Shown in pieces: positions 15,993 to 25,490 of a stretch of 64,000 bases of DNA. The first letter of the stretch is position 1, and the number at the start of each line of letters is the position of its first letter. Both the position numbers and the translations under genes were made by a program. Below the pieces are notes generated by a model that worked only from the letters and a program-made list of their open reading frames with translations, was not told where the DNA came from and did not search any database. Where the stretch lies: positions 1-64,000 of the forward strand of contig JAGQVE010000015.1 in assembly GCA_020438105.1 (NCBI GenBank), given 5' to 3'. The stretch comes from Bacteroidales bacterium. GTDB taxonomy: Bacteria > Bacteroidota > Bacteroidia > Bacteroidales > JAADJA01.

Positions 15993-16859
15993 ATGAAGAG
16001 AATTGATCCTTATAATATTCCAAACCCTGCCGTTCACCAATATTTGCTTGGTGCTATCGGACCCAGGCCCATCGCTTTTGCGAGTACAGTTGACAAAGAC
16101 GGTAACCCCAATTTATCTCCTTTCAGTTTTTTTAATGCCTTTGGGGTAAACCCAACAACACTGATATTTTCACCTTCACGTCGAGGGAGGGATAACACCA
16201 CCAAACATACTTACGAAAACTTAAAGGAGGTTCCTGAAGTGGTGATCAATGTCGTAACATTCGCAATGGTGGAGCAAACAAGTTTGTCAAGCACCGAATA
16301 TCCCAGGGGGGTGAACGAGTTTGTTAAAGCCGGATTTACTCCTCTGCCTTCTGAAACCATAAAGCCGTTCAGGGTAAAAGAGTCGCCGGTACAGTTCGAA
16401 TGCAAGGTGAGAGACATCATTGAAACCGGAACCGGCGGTGGAGCTGCAAACCTTGTAGTTTGCGAGGTGAGTTTGATACATGTAGATGAATCTGTTCTGG
16501 ATGAAGATGGTAAAATTGATCAGCACAAAATCGACCTTGTAGGCCGCATGGGAGGGAATTTTTATTCACGCAGTTCACTTGGATTGTTTGAAGTTGAAAA
16601 ACCATTGCAAAAACTCGGCATCGGCATTGACAACCTGCCCGAAAAAATCCGGTTTTCGGACCAACTCACTGGAAACGAACTTGGAAAACTTGGAAATATT
16701 GAATCCCTTCCATCAGTTGAAGAAGCAGAAGCATATGCTACAACAAATACCGCTGTAGCCGGCCTTATCGGTAAAACAAATGTTTTAAATACGGCAAAGG
16801 AATTACTTTCAGCAGGAAAAACAAAGGAAGCCCTTATGCTACTGATGGCTCGATTCTAA
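15993..16859 (+). CDS. Flavin reductase-like (FMN-binding split barrel) protein
   Basis: Start at ATG 15993, two bases after the fumarylacetoacetase stop (MKRIDPYNIPNPAVHQYLLG); the longer frame is inside that gene. The 288-aa protein has an FMN-binding split-barrel domain over residues 1-210 with IGPRPIAFASTVDKDGNPNL and SPFSFFNAFGVNP. A C-terminal helical tail of about 70 residues follows. Proteins of this kind accompany tyrosine-degradation genes in other Bacteroidota, but their exact reaction is not clear to me; a flavin-dependent oxidoreductase role is likely. Its last 26 bases overlap the convergent aromatic amino acid hydroxylase gene (16834-16859), so the two 3' ends share DNA. Confidence 0.88.
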   Translation: MKRIDPYNIPNPAVHQYLLGAIGPRPIAFASTVDKDGNPNLSPFSFFNAFGVNPTTLIFSPSRRGRDNTTKHTYENLKEVPEVVINVVTFAMVEQTSLSSTEYPRGVNEFVKAGFTPLPSETIKPFRVKESPVQFECKVRDIIETGTGGGAANLVVCEVSLIHVDESVLDEDGKIDQHKIDLVGRMGGNFYSRSSLGLFEVEKPLQKLGIGIDNLPEKIRFSDQLTGNELGKLGNIESLPSVEEAEAYATTNTAVAGLIGKTNVLNTAKELLSAGKTKEALMLLMARF

Positions 16860-18597
16860 CATTTACAACATCATCAATCATATCAAAACCGTTTGTGATC
16901 AAAGTTTTGAGAGCAGGCCTTGTTTTTCTTAACTTTTCGAGGTGCTTGCGCAGATCATCTCTGAATTTATCAGTTCCAAACTTACTGGCTAGTTCAAGCA
17001 ATTCCATCATGATCAGCCATTCATTTGGATATGCTTTGTTAACTTGTTCATAAATTTTAAGCAGCGGTGCTTCTGTATAATTGCCTTGTCGAAGCTCCCT
17101 CACCTCTTTATAAAGGTCATGGAGCTTTTTCGCTTCTTCAGTATGATTGATTTTATGTGTTTTTTCAGCCGGAGCCTCAAAAGTCAACCCAAAAGCATCC
17201 GCATCTGCAGGCCCCTGGAATGCAGATACGATCTGGTTACCAACAGCCATGTCGTAAGTACCCCATGATGGTTCAAACAATGTTTTATCCTGATAGGTAA
17301 CAGTGCAATTATTGAAAGTCATTAATATGATTTTACCTTTTCGACGAACCACCTGCTCAAGTCTTCCTTTCAACAAAATGCCTGATTCAAATACAAGTTC
17401 AACATCCCGGCCCTCCTCGATTCCATTGCGCCGAAGATCATTATCTTTGAACATCTCAAGCGGCGTGTAAAGGTTTTTAAGTCCACCAATCGGTGATGAA
17501 AATCCATCTTTATGATATTTTTTCCCATGCCCCTCCAACTGCTCATCATAATAACTCAGGGCACTTGCACTGCCCATCCGAAACCAAATAGGTTCGCCAT
17601 TATCAGCCAGATATTCAGCAAGAGTTCCACTTACCTGCAAGCCCGAAGAATAAACGACAGTTGCCGTGGTTTTACTTTCCAGCGCTTTTTGCAATCCATA
17701 AATACCGCCTTTGCGTAAAGCCATCCTGTCGGCGAATTCATTTAAAACCGCTGTTAAATTTTCAAAATCAGGGGTTACAAATAATTGGGGCTGACGGGTA
17801 GTAATATCAAAATTATAATTTACAGCATCAATGGTATAAGGTATCTTAACAACATCCGCTTGCAGGGATGAAAAACTTTCTCCAATGCTGGATAACAAAC
17901 CGGCACCGTATATTTTAGGCTTACGCAAATCACCGATCAAACCGTACTCAACGGTCCACCAATGAAGGTTGCGGATCAATGACATCTCGGACATGGTTAT
18001 CAGGCCACCCTGCAATTCGGCCAGTTTTTTCTCGGCTTTTGAAATATCTTTCTTATTGGTATATGGATCTGCTTTTAAAATGGATAAATGACGTATTGCA
18101 CTGTAAATCTCATAATCTTTGGCAGATGAAAAAGCCCTGGCTCCTATTTTACCGAATAGTTGCAAATATTCGGCATACTGCGGGTCAGCAATGATGGGAG
18201 CATGCCCAGCAGCTTCATGAATAATATCCGGTGCCGGCGTATATTCAATTTGATCCATTGGCCTGATATCAGCTGCGATTACCAGTACGTTGTAAGCCTG
18301 AAACTCCATAAAAGCAGAAGGAGGAATAAACCCGTCCACAGCCACAGCTGCCCACCCGATCTCCTTCAAAATCCTGTTCATCCCATACATGTGTGGGATT
18401 TCATTGATACTAACACCGGTTTTTTCTAAACCTTCGGTATATGAGTGGTGGGCAACTTTGCTCAGGTACCGCACATTTTGTTTCATCACATAGCGCCACA
18501 ACGCATGATCCTGCGGTGTATAATCGTTGTAGGGCTGATCGATGACCAGGTTTAACAAGTGTTTGGGCAACTTCTCAAGAACTTCATTCATTTCCAT
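16834..18597 (-). CDS. phhA: Aromatic amino acid (phenylalanine) hydroxylase, long form
   Basis: A 587-aa pterin-dependent monooxygenase expected to turn phenylalanine into tyrosine, feeding the convergent tyrosine-degradation operon. The iron site is visible: His127 and His132 in PDIIHEAAGHAPI and Glu217 in WWTVEYGLIGD. IGWAAVAVDGFIPPSAFMEF and YGAGLLSSIGES are also family sequence. Compared with the human enzyme, about 45 extra residues (rich in Lys/Glu, around 160-205) lie between the second His and the Glu. A long C-terminal region of about 250 residues replaces the tetramerisation tail, and there is no N-terminal ACT domain. This long form is known in Bacteroidota. Phenylalanine as substrate is inferred from family and context. 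Confidence 0.9.
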   Translation of the reverse strand: MEMNEVLEKLPKHLLNLVIDQPYNDYTPQDHALWRYVMKQNVRYLSKVAHHSYTEGLEKTGVSINEIPHMYGMNRILKEIGWAAVAVDGFIPPSAFMEFQAYNVLVIAADIRPMDQIEYTPAPDIIHEAAGHAPIIADPQYAEYLQLFGKIGARAFSSAKDYEIYSAIRHLSILKADPYTNKKDISKAEKKLAELQGGLITMSEMSLIRNLHWWTVEYGLIGDLRKPKIYGAGLLSSIGESFSSLQADVVKIPYTIDAVNYNFDITTRQPQLFVTPDFENLTAVLNEFADRMALRKGGIYGLQKALESKTTATVVYSSGLQVSGTLAEYLADNGEPIWFRMGSASALSYYDEQLEGHGKKYHKDGFSSPIGGLKNLYTPLEMFKDNDLRRNGIEEGRDVELVFESGILLKGRLEQVVRRKGKIILMTFNNCTVTYQDKTLFEPSWGTYDMAVGNQIVSAFQGPADADAFGLTFEAPAEKTHKINHTEEAKKLHDLYKEVRELRQGNYTEAPLLKIYEQVNKAYPNEWLIMMELLELASKFGTDKFRDDLRKHLEKLRKTRPALKTLITNGFDMIDDVVNVRIEPSVA

Positions 18598-22094: not shown

Positions 22095-22211
22095 TGAGAT
22101 GTGTAAATTTATTGAACTAATCATTAAAACAGCATTTGCAGGATTTAGTTTGAAACAATCTTTTATAAAAATCGCTGTTATTATTATTTGATCAAAATTT
22201 AAAACTTGCCC

Positions 22212-22772
22212 ATGAAGAAAACTATTCTTTTTATTTTCATGACGCTTTCCATATTATCTTGCAAATCGCAGCAATTTAAAAATTACAACAAACCCCTTGC
22301 TGAGCTATTATCAGATAGTCTTTTTTTAAATAAACCAGTAATAGTATGTGTTGAGAAATCAAAATACAAATTATCGATTATGATTGATTCAATCACTGTT
22401 AAGGCTTATCCTGTAGTATTTGGTGGCAATCCGATTGATGACAAATTGAAGCAGGGAGATAAATGCACACCGGAAGGCAAATTTAAAATTAGAACCAAAT
22501 ATCCTCACCAATCCTGGTCGAAATTTATCTGGATTGATTATCCAAATGAGGATTCGTGGGCAAAGCACAAACAGGCAAAAGCAGTCAACAAAATCCCGGA
22601 AAATGCAAATATTGGCGGAGAAATTGGTATTCATGGAGTTCCGGAAGGGATGGATTATTTAATTGACAATCGGATAAACTGGACCCTGGGTTGCATTTCA
22701 ATGAAGAATATTGATGTGGAGGAAATTTATCCATATTTGAATGAAAATACGGAAGTAAAAATAGTTCACTAA
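22212..22772 (+). CDS. L,D-transpeptidase (YkuD-like) lipoprotein
   Basis: Start at ATG 22212 (MKKTILFIFMTLSILSCKSQ); an upstream TTG at 22206 is rejected. The N terminus is a lipoprotein signal with lipobox Cys17, so it should be anchored in the envelope. The catalytic pattern is visible: EIGIHGVPEG with His141 and WTLGCISM with the nucleophile Cys161. By family it crosslinks peptidoglycan stem peptides or attaches proteins to them, though many Bacteroidota YkuD proteins are uncharacterised. It lies 26 bases before three overlapping lipid-enzyme genes on the same strand, so it is probably in their operon. Confidence 0.88.
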   Translation: MKKTILFIFMTLSILSCKSQQFKNYNKPLAELLSDSLFLNKPVIVCVEKSKYKLSIMIDSITVKAYPVVFGGNPIDDKLKQGDKCTPEGKFKIRTKYPHQSWSKFIWIDYPNEDSWAKHKQAKAVNKIPENANIGGEIGIHGVPEGMDYLIDNRINWTLGCISMKNIDVEEIYPYLNENTEVKIVH

Positions 22773-22798
22773 TTTTAGCTCAAATTTCCGCTGAAAAC

Positions 22799-23368
22799 AT
22801 GCCTGTAAATAAAAACCTACCCAATATTATTTCCTCCTATCGTTTGGTGGCATTTCCATTTTTGATCTTTTTTGCAATTCAAAGGATGGAAGTAATATTT
22901 GCATGGCTTCTTATAATCAACCTGTTGTCTGATATTCTGGATGGATATATAGCCAGGAAATTTAAATTAACAACTCAGCTAGGTGCCCGACTTGACTCAA
23001 TTGCTGATATCGGTACATACATCGCGGCTTTTTGTGGTGTTTTCGTATTTAAACTGGATGTATTCAGTGACCATTTATTAAGCTTTGGAATATTTATAAC
23101 ATTATTTATTTTATCAAATATTTTATCATTTGTAAAATTTGGCAGATTGCCCAGTCTGCATCTGTATTCATGGAAAATCGGTGGGTATATTCAGGGTGCA
23201 TTTTTTATATGGCTTTTTGCTGTAGGTTTTAACTTGCCATTTTATTTCTTTATGATTTCATGGGGTATACTTGCTTTTACAGAGCACATAATTATTCAAT
23301 TAATAATTGACGAAATGAAATCAAATGCAAAAGGACTGTATTGGATTTTAAAAGATAAAAAGCATTGA
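22799..23368 (+). CDS. CDP-alcohol phosphatidyltransferase
   Basis: A 189-aa membrane enzyme with about five hydrophobic segments. The family signature DxxDGxxAR-x8-GxxxDxxxD is complete: Asp45, Asp48, Gly49, Ala52, Arg53, Gly62, Asp66 and Asp70 (SDILDGYIARKFK, then LGARLDSIAD). It transfers a phosphatidyl-type group from a CDP-lipid to an alcohol acceptor. The acceptor cannot be read from sequence; glycerol phosphate, inositol phosphate or another alcohol is possible. Its stop overlaps a TTG start of the CdsA-like gene, followed by an ATGA-coupled kinase-like gene. The order suggests a three-enzyme lipid pathway at the inner membrane. Confidence 0.92.
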   Translation: MPVNKNLPNIISSYRLVAFPFLIFFAIQRMEVIFAWLLIINLLSDILDGYIARKFKLTTQLGARLDSIADIGTYIAAFCGVFVFKLDVFSDHLLSFGIFITLFILSNILSFVKFGRLPSLHLYSWKIGGYIQGAFFIWLFAVGFNLPFYFFMISWGILAFTEHIIIQLIIDEMKSNAKGLYWILKDKKH

Positions 23369-24087
23369 TATTACAATTGTACATATTGGTGGCGCTTTAC
23401 TTTTTAGCAGGTGCAATTGCTATTATAAAATTAAATGGAGGAAAATCTGGTGATTTAAAAAAGTTGGCCTGGTTAAAATACCTGGTTTATCTGATAATAG
23501 TGGTATCTGTACTTTCGCTAATTATTTTCACAGTGTGGGGATTTTTCCTTCTTGCACTTTTTATTATAATTGGTGGTTCGGTTGAGATTATTTCAATGTT
23601 CGGCAAAATAAAAACACCACTGACTTTCATAATGATTTTTATGTTTTATCTGTTAATCAGTTTTTGTTTTTTACTTTTTACAAAAATTGATTACCAATAC
23701 AGCGTGCTGGTTTATTTGGTAGTTGCGATTTTTGATGGCATGAGTCAAGTTGGTGGACAAATGTTTGGTAATCGAAAATTAGTTCCTTCAATTAGCCCTC
23801 AAAAAACTGTTTCCGGATTAATAAGCGGAATAATATTTAGCGGGATTACGATTATAATTCTAGCAAAAATCCTCCATTTAAATTTTGGGCTATTGCCATT
23901 CTTTTATTTAATCATAGTCGGCCCTGCTTTTATCGGCGATTTGTTGGCCTCTTTGCTGAAAAGAAAAACTAATATTAAAGATTTCAGTTCAGTTATTCCT
24001 GGTCATGGAGGAATACTCGACAGGTTTGATAGTTTACTAATGAGTGGAGCATTATTTTATGTGGCTTTCAAATTAATGGAAATATGA
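23365..24087 (+). CDS. CdsA-type phosphatidate cytidylyltransferase
   Basis: A 240-aa multi-spanning protein (about seven or eight hydrophobic segments). The full cytidylyltransferase signature lies at residues 196-222 (SLLKRKTNIKDFSSVIPGHG then GILDRFD) and includes the metal-binding Asp residues. It activates a phosphorylated lipid with CTP to a CDP-lipid, the donor needed by the enzyme encoded just upstream. No in-frame ATG exists near the 5' end. Start candidates are TTG 23365 (overlapping the preceding TGA), TTG 23377, TTG 23386 and GTG 23389; TTG 23365 is taken because of the coupling geometry. It is shorter than housekeeping CdsA (about 270-285 aa) and is probably a paralogue. Confidence 0.88.
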   Translation: MILQLYILVALYFLAGAIAIIKLNGGKSGDLKKLAWLKYLVYLIIVVSVLSLIIFTVWGFFLLALFIIIGGSVEIISMFGKIKTPLTFIMIFMFYLLISFCFLLFTKIDYQYSVLVYLVVAIFDGMSQVGGQMFGNRKLVPSISPQKTVSGLISGIIFSGITIIILAKILHLNFGLLPFFYLIIVGPAFIGDLLASLLKRKTNIKDFSSVIPGHGGILDRFDSLLMSGALFYVAFKLMEI

Positions 24088-24758
24088 AAATAGAAATATT
24101 ATATGTGATCATTTATGTTTTCTACTTTTGTGGATTACTTCTTATCACTGAATATTTGCATAAAAAATGGATTAAAAATCCTGAAATAACAAGAAAGCTG
24201 GCTCATGTAACCTCAACCTTAAGCTGCATTTTATTCCCGCTTCTTTTTAAACAACATTGGTGGGTGCTGATTTTAGGAATAATTTTCACATTGTTGCTTT
24301 ATATTGCGAAAAAAAGAAAATTATTTTCCTCCATCGAAAATGTTGGGAGGATAACAATTGGCTCCGTTCTCCTGCCTGTATCAATCTATCTTATTTTTTT
24401 AATCTCTGTGCAATTAAGGGATTTTTTACTTTTTATTATTCCTTTGCTAATTTTGGGCATTAGCGACCCACTTGCTGGTTTAGCTGCAATATTACCCGGC
24501 ACAAGCCGAAAAAAAGTCAGGCTGGGAAATTTGGAATTGAACAAAACATATCTTGGATCAATCCTGTTTTTTTCATCATCGTTTGCTATTGGGCTTTTGG
24601 TATTTCTGGTAAATGATTTCCGATTTCAATATGCATTTATTTATGCATTTGCCATCGCCGCTATCAGTTCATTAGCGGAAGTATTGAGCGGCAGAGGACT
24701 GGATAACCTGACTATTCCTGTAAGTATTGAAATCCTTCTGGTTCTTTTCATTATATGA
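24084..24758 (+). CDS. Dolichol/phytol-kinase-like (CTP-dependent lipid kinase) protein
   Basis: A 224-aa protein with six or seven membrane segments. NPEITRKLAHVTSTLSCILF and ISDPLAGLAAILPG match the SEC59/VTE5/DGK1 family of CTP-dependent kinases that phosphorylate dolichol, phytol or diacylglycerol. LNKTYLGSILFFSSSF and the late AEVLSGRGLDNLTIPV also fit that family. The substrate here is unknown. The ATG overlaps the CdsA-like stop (ATGA), so translation is coupled. In reaction order this enzyme would come first: lipid alcohol to lipid phosphate, then CdsA-like activation, then head-group transfer. Confidence 0.82.
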   Translation: MKIEILYVIIYVFYFCGLLLITEYLHKKWIKNPEITRKLAHVTSTLSCILFPLLFKQHWWVLILGIIFTLLLYIAKKRKLFSSIENVGRITIGSVLLPVSIYLIFLISVQLRDFLLFIIPLLILGISDPLAGLAAILPGTSRKKVRLGNLELNKTYLGSILFFSSSFAIGLLVFLVNDFRFQYAFIYAFAIAAISSLAEVLSGRGLDNLTIPVSIEILLVLFII

Positions 24759-24824
24759 AGCAGTTACAGTATTTAAACAATCTTATTGATTTGCCGTTAT
24801 TTAAAAAAACCAACTTATTTTTTT

Positions 24825-25490
24825 ATGTCAAAATTCAATTTGCTAATTATTGCATGGATTTCATTATCTCCGTTGTTTCCATTTAATGCAAATGTTTCGC
24901 CACAACCGACAATGCAGCTCTCGCAAGAAGCAGCGCCCGGGCTTGGAATGTTCAAACCCGATTTTTTTAATAACCATAAACTGGGATTTTACGGAAAACC
25001 AAATTTTGAAAAGGCACCGGATGAGCATGTGCCATATGACAGCTTACTTTTCGAAAAGACCGAAACAGGCCTTAATATTGCTTATGCCCCACCCTATTTT
25101 GTGCCTGCAATTATGAAGCTGGATTACGAAGTATTGTACCTCCGTGTCGTTTCTGTGAAAAGAGATTTTTACGAAGTGGTTGTAAACGAAATAACCGGAC
25201 AAACCTCATATATTGATAAATACAGCGGGGAAATATTTTATTGGCCTGATTTTCTGCTACAGGTGAACAGTGTGATACAAATATTCCCTGAAAATAACCC
25301 GGTAAGGACCAAAGGACTTGCCGCTGCTTCAGAAGTAAATACAAACTACTCTTTTCTACATCCCATTAGTATTAAAAACGATTGGATGGAAGTGGAGCTA
25401 CTGGATGACAGTTTTCAAAGATTGGAAACAGGTTGGATTCGTTGGCAGGAATGCGGTGAATTATTAATAACATTCAGTTTATTTAGCTAA
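24825..25490 (+). CDS. Exported protein of unknown function
   Basis: Start at ATG 24825 (MSKFNLLIIAWISLSPLFPF), a signal peptide; a TTG at 24786 is rejected. The 221-aa protein is not recognised. The mature part is beta-rich and acidic, with YLRVVSVKRDFYEVVVNEIT and VELLDDSFQRLETGWIRW, which might form SH3-like strands, but this is weak. It follows the kinase-like gene by 66 bases on the same strand and ends at a shared hairpin terminator. It may therefore belong to the lipid operon as an exported partner. Confidence 0.6.
   Translation: MSKFNLLIIAWISLSPLFPFNANVSPQPTMQLSQEAAPGLGMFKPDFFNNHKLGFYGKPNFEKAPDEHVPYDSLLFEKTETGLNIAYAPPYFVPAIMKLDYEVLYLRVVSVKRDFYEVVVNEITGQTSYIDKYSGEIFYWPDFLLQVNSVIQIFPENNPVRTKGLAAASEVNTNYSFLHPISIKNDWMEVELLDDSFQRLETGWIRWQECGELLITFSLFS

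Follow-up and report, generated by a model that had tools for sequence, protein, structure and literature searches.

An accessory three-gene lipid cassette of Bacteroidota and its possible role in making isoprenoid-containing lipids

Gene content of the cassette

The window, the whole 64,000-nucleotide stretch analyzed here, comes from a Bacteroidales genome (4.3 Mb, 143 contigs, 90.6% complete) and carries three genes on its + strand at positions 22799-24758, neighbors sharing 4 bases each. They encode a CDP-alcohol phosphatidyltransferase (PT; 22799-23368, 189 aa), a CdsA-like cytidylyltransferase (23365-24087, 240 aa, TTG start), and a dolichol/phytol-kinase-like membrane protein (KIN; 24084-24758, 224 aa). 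An earlier note, made from the sequence alone, had described three overlapping open reading frames, which were recovered with exactly these coordinates. As it also described, the trio is flanked on the same strand by genes for an L,D-transpeptidase-family lipoprotein (YkuD; PF03734, E = 3e-19; 22212-22772, + strand, 26 bases upstream of PT) and for an exported protein. Elsewhere in the window, a 587-aa open reading frame (16834-18597) resembles, by eye, an aromatic amino acid hydroxylase extended at its C-terminus.

PT matches Pfam PF01066 (E = 1e-18, above the cut-off) and carries the complete DxxDGxxARx8GxxxDxxxD motif (DILDGYIARKFKLTTQLGARLDSIAD), which makes it a member of the CDP-alcohol phosphatidyltransferase superfamily. 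Likewise, the CdsA-like protein belongs to the CDP-diglyceride synthetase family, with a match to PF01148 (E = 5e-35, 122 bits against a cut-off of 24) and a CDS signature (SLLKRKTNIKDFSSVIPGHGGILDRFD) at residue 196. Both motifs had been called beforehand and proved intact on a residue check.

KIN matched no Pfam or NCBIfam model, curated kinase families included, and no PDB entry by sequence or by fold; its AlphaFold model has a mean pLDDT of 92.6. Homology links it, at 26-33% identity and with E values as low as 5e-20, to the N-terminal half of proteins of ~500 aa, whose C-terminal half is DUF92 (PF01940) in the one scanned. KIN also retains the TRKxAH, DxxAG, KTxxGS, and GxDNxxxP blocks. 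These blocks, which we take to be the pattern of CTP-dependent dolichol/phytol/diacylglycerol kinases, and the homology to the kinase-like half of the DUF92 fusions uphold the kinase-like label given to KIN from the outset. For a KIN homologue in genome G482, the match to PF01148 is no better than E = 0.017. KIN thus shares size, all-helical membrane architecture, and the pattern of conserved blocks with SEC59/VTE5/DGK1-type enzymes, but differs from them in matching no curated model and in the separate grouping of the trio KINs, 12 of 13 sampled, the window's included, forming a single clade with 100/99 support. The remaining one, from Phaeocystidibacter luteus (L100), groups with KINs adjoining genes of the BtaA-like DUF3419 family.

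Proteins of ~500 aa whose N-terminal half resembles KIN are also encoded by numerous genomes from other classes of the phylum (at most loci of L012-L030 and L032-L040). DUF92 is the VTE6 family, and plants use the corresponding pair, VTE5 and VTE6, for two successive phosphorylations of phytol. The domain composition of these KIN-DUF92-type proteins suggests a role in isoprenoid-alcohol salvage.

Following the established chemistry of the three families, KIN would phosphorylate a lipid alcohol to a lipid phosphate, with CTP as the probable donor, the CdsA-like enzyme would convert this product to a CDP-lipid, and PT would replace CMP with a polar alcohol to give a head-grouped lipid (lipid-P-X). 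With the predicted kinase step first, the gene order PT-CdsA-KIN is the reverse of the reaction order, an earlier point that stands. We consider such a three-step route, taken on its own, quite likely.

The AlphaFold model of PT (mean pLDDT 92.4) has PGP synthase 7drj as its nearest solved fold (TM 0.65) and lies further from PSS (TM 0.39-0.45) and PIPS (0.45-0.53), so that a phosphorylated small alcohol of the glycerol-phosphate type is weakly favored as the acceptor. The best NCBIfam model is likewise PgsA (TIGR00560), at 48.3 bits against a curated cut-off of 109, which sets PT outside that equivalog; the match spans residues 5-86 only, the N-terminal catalytic half, and leaves the conserved C-terminal half of PT (PSLHLYSWKIGGYIQG...) uncovered. 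Proximity to PgsA in both comparisons (48 bits against 109 for the model, and the closest fold) would suit a salvage of diacylglycerol, in which KIN would be a Dgk1-like CTP kinase, the CdsA-like enzyme would form CDP-diacylglycerol, and PT would act as a PGP-synthase-like enzyme leading to phosphatidylglycerol. We regard this reading as rather unlikely, and further evidence on it is given below.

Accessory status of the cassette

The trio had been proposed to be separate from housekeeping phospholipid synthesis, and the same genome indeed encodes other copies of both enzymes. A further CdsA (C60:19435-20220) scores 204 bits, and the trio copy, at 121 bits, is therefore neither the sole nor the best CdsA of the genome; the two align over the C-terminal half only, at 38% identity. 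A further CDP-alcohol transferase on contig C81 is PssA-like, its 102 bits falling slightly short of the PssA cut-off of 107. It is the only other CDP-alcohol transferase, and most relatives that have only PssA lack a PGP-synthase-like gene, a gap that diacylglycerol salvage would fill; since the housekeeping CdsA already makes CDP-diacylglycerol, the extra CdsA would be superfluous in such a salvage.

The PT subfamily is rare, being found in 4 of 119 relatives (the window's genome, G048 with two copies, G054, and G519) at 294-310 bits, and all remaining matches score at most 77 bits. Within the genus, one genome of 17, that of the window, carries it. A search of 60 relatives, a set without G519, found KIN in three, precisely those in which PT is also present. 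With another CdsA and a PssA-type transferase present and the PT subfamily rare in relatives, a housekeeping role for the trio was ruled out.

At the matching site of the congener G009 (L200), the exported gene and zinc-ribbon/thioredoxin genes lie ~100 bases apart without the trio between them. A blastn alignment of this locus with the window jumps from window position 22120 to 24938, and the segment without a counterpart (22121-24937) comprises the trio with the L,D-transpeptidase gene and reaches into the exported gene, whose start is poorly conserved; the 2.7 kb interval with the L,D-transpeptidase and trio is missing there. The GC content of these four genes is 0.32-0.35, against 0.41 for the window. 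Either the window's lineage gained the interval or that of G009 lost it, and the low GC and the rarity in the genus favor a gain. This site comparison covers one genome, G009, as the exported-gene marker was found in 2 of 16 other genus members and the contig of the second, G006, is too short to span the site. The cassette is probably an accessory, laterally moving unit.

The exported neighbor was rejected as a member of the cassette: it occupies the same site in G009 without the trio and hence belongs to the ancestral site. The L,D-transpeptidase gene is not adjacent to the trio in the other loci surveyed; here it moved, or was lost, together with the trio, and it shows no sign of a role in the pathway.

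Conservation of the trio in Bacteroidota

A scan with the PT alignment, taking one genome per species, yielded 75 loci, almost all of which carry a Bacteroidota label; viral copies of the cassette were looked for and none was found. PT, CdsA, and KIN occur together in 39 Bacteroidota loci (the window, G048, and G054 counted), so the neighborhood, whose conservation in relatives had been set as a check, recurs in dozens of loci. Pairwise distances are correlated at 0.86 for CdsA-KIN (shuffle maximum 0.28), 0.66 for PT-KIN (0.24), and 0.59 for PT-CdsA (0.39). CdsA and KIN are the tightest pair, PT being swapped more freely. Overall, these sequence comparisons support the earlier interpretation of the trio.

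Some loci hold two PTs. In five genomes whose fetched PT locus is without KIN (G458, G469, G473, G480, and G487), CdsA-KIN cassettes are found elsewhere, and in a sixth (G489) PT, KIN, and TauE were seen elsewhere. PT relatives away from any KIN/CdsA pair could draw CDP-lipids from other synthases. For the isolated PTs without KIN in Flavobacteriales, ordinary CDP-diacylglycerol is the obvious donor, another point on the side of diacylglycerol salvage.

A TauE/SafE-family transporter gene lies between PT and CdsA at L080:8570-9367 and at about 20 further trio loci, and a further TauE-like gene was seen upstream at L083:3615-4382. In CSSed sediment lineages, efflux genes are found repeatedly around the trio, as is a gene for a ~1190-aa protein; these were set aside as a vertically inherited neighborhood.

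Linkage with HMG-CoA reductase genes

An additional, unfused class I HMG-CoA reductase (HMGR) was found in 18 of 34 KIN-bearing genomes and in none of 10 PT genomes without KIN (Fisher 0.003, shared ancestry ignored), the KIN label of some genomes meaning a trio at the fetched locus, not the result of a whole-genome search. Among the relatives, it was present in two of the three KIN-bearing genomes and in none of 116 others (Fisher 4e-4, shared ancestry ignored). HMGR genes also lie within ~8 kb of PT at 7 of the 75 loci (L050, L056, L061, L078, L085, L100, and L103), inside the trio at L100 and divergent from it at L078 and L085, which is above chance (6e-6 when all seven are treated as independent, 0.005 when only four are, shared ancestry again ignored).

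For the unfused additional HMGRs, the class I NADPH model is by far a better match than the class II model, the two examples tested both scoring below the class I cut-off. In the HMGR tree, they form three clades together with HMGRs fused to an APH-type phosphotransferase domain; a further clade of 516-aa HMGRs, from four relatives, was placed separately and left out of the counts. HMGR was detected in 45 of the 119 relatives and not in the others, and none was detected in several trio genomes. The window genome's own HMGR is of class II type and lies in a run of mevalonate-pathway genes (G000:C53, L167:6639-12419). This run adjoins a gene for a geranylgeranyl-reductase-like FAD protein.

The association could also mean that the additional HMGR supplies mevalonate as the head group, PT then producing a lipid-phospho-mevalonate. 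Three separate HMGR clades are found repeatedly alongside PT or KIN, one of these clades has the APH fusion, and the additional HMGR is the sole HMGR in several KIN genomes, all of which would fit. Genomes with the additional HMGR as their sole copy are G463, G468, G469, G470, G475, G479, and G488. Some PT genomes, by contrast, have no HMGR yet carry UbiA and CarS-like genes (L055/G461), and to our knowledge no such lipid has been described; we hold this reading to be very improbable.

Linkage with other isoprenoid genes

PT loci without KIN (L050, L054, L055, L056, L061, and L106) hold mixes of UbiA-like, PPDK/PEP-utilizer-type, CarS-like, ICMT-like methyltransferase, and HMGR genes. The CarS-like calls (20.3 and 19.5 bits) fall below the Pfam cut-off of 22 and the UbiA call at L106 (125 bits) below the NCBIfam cut-off of 443, so these names are tentative. 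At L056:1015-8573, L055, L061, and L106, UbiA-like, PPDK-type, CarS-like, and ICMT-like genes and an HMGR-APH fusion lie beside the KIN-less PT, and such genes might feed this transferase by another route. The HMGR, UbiA, and CarS-like linkage is left unexplained by diacylglycerol salvage.

A large cluster, lipid-like in its gene content, was assembled from two contigs of G488 (L103:565-3384 and L170:373-8641), a join inferred from a ~40-base overlap with one mismatch, and reads HMGR-PT-CdsA-UbiA-PPDK-DUF3419-KIN-GNAT-SRPBCC-AMP-ligase. G482 (L164:242-9300) repeats this order, minus PT-CdsA and minus SRPBCC. The DUF3419 protein of these clusters could add an aminocarboxypropyl group. Their acyl-CoA-ligase-type gene is in keeping with a different substrate, a ceramide or long-chain fatty alcohol, from which the trio would make a ceramide-phosphate- or alkyl-phosphate-linked lipid. 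Sphingolipids are typical of Bacteroidota, and Mangrovibacterium lignilyticum (L203) has a fatty-acyl-CoA-reductase-type gene (PF07993) between KIN and PT. This reductase was seen at that one locus only, and the survey of neighbors, which were annotated in part, recognized no sphingolipid gene beside any trio locus. We judge a ceramide or fatty alcohol substrate improbable.

In two trio genomes, G048 (L169:6769-12987) and G478 (L171), an MMPL exporter gene shares a cluster with genes for PcrB, a DGGGP-synthase-like UbiA, and an FAD protein resembling geranylgeranyl reductase, the G048 cluster additionally holding a LolA-like protein; this amounts to an archaea-like ether-lipid gene set in Bacteroidales. 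A distant MMPL/LolA-like pair (25% and 21% identity) adjoins the M. lignilyticum trio and gives a lead only toward a link with the PcrB clusters. Across genomes, PcrB was not associated with PT (31 of 44 PT genomes, 82 of 119 relatives), a result that speaks against a simple archaeal-type pathway for the trio.

Such HMGR, UbiA, and CarS-like genes at PT loci of relatives have no counterpart at the window's locus, and both the additional HMGR and the cluster UbiA are absent from its genome.

Proposed pathway

Our main reading is that the cassette would form an accessory three-enzyme route, running from KIN through the CdsA-like enzyme to PT, on a non-housekeeping lipid alcohol that most likely bears isoprenoid chains. 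We put the probability of this reading as a whole at about 0.5; granted the three-step route, an isoprenoid-containing substrate seems probable. Counted in its favor were family membership with intact motifs, the separate housekeeping enzymes, the 39 loci, the co-variation of the trio, the DUF92 fusions, the HMGR, UbiA, PPDK, and CarS-like linkage in relatives, and the G488 cluster. Counted against it were the window genome without additional HMGR or UbiA, the trio genomes that lack HMGR, the PcrB null result, and the reductase of L203.

More tentatively, and as a proposal that we rate somewhat unlikely, the trio may belong to an undescribed, laterally moving pathway of Bacteroidota that makes isoprenoid phospholipids by phosphorylating an isoprenoid alcohol, thereby bypassing GGGP synthase, with the additional class I HMGR supplying many of its carriers.

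Relation to known systems and significance

No paper describing the trio was found in the literature searched. The closest characterized gene pair found was ynbA-ynbB of E. coli, where a PT and a CdsA-like gene are also adjacent and non-housekeeping but where the kinase is absent and ynbC and ynbD follow. YnbB is a non-essential CdsA paralogue with a conserved C-terminal half and does not replace CdsA (PMC6362211). The trio PT profile scored PgsA at 50 bits, PssA at 46, and YnbA at 25, and the trio CdsA profile scored YnbB no better than CdsA. The resemblance to a ynbAB-type pair is therefore not a particularly close one, YnbA being the weakest of the three references and YnbB not exceeding CdsA.

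The closest conceptual relative is the proposal of archaeal-type ether lipids in the FCB group, which does without CarS and assigns the last steps to CDP-diacylglycerol synthase and PGP synthase of bacterial type (PMC7852524). Bacterial isoprenoid lipid genes and the kinds of last-step enzymes are common to that proposal and the cassette; there, however, glycerol-1-phosphate enters via GGGP synthase, whereas in the trio a kinase would put the phosphate on the lipid alcohol. New here are the frequent additional class I HMGR in KIN genomes, the HMGR genes near PT loci, and the G488 cluster.

The cassette is an uncommon supplement to the ordinary membrane-lipid genes in part of the Bacteroidota, a phylum in which extra cdsA and CDP-alcohol transferase genes are easily mistaken for housekeeping copies. 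In relatives, its position beside isoprenoid-making genes hints at an undescribed, possibly archaea-like membrane lipid. It is a compact, testable unit, present in the cultured M. lignilyticum and P. luteus. Were the lipid based on diacylglycerol, the cassette would be a transferable means of adding an acidic phospholipid. If it is isoprenoid, the cassette would represent a kinase-based bacterial route to archaea-like phospholipids; by phosphorylating an isoprenoid alcohol, bacteria would then arrive independently at polar lipids like those of archaea, with a direct bearing on the lipid divide.
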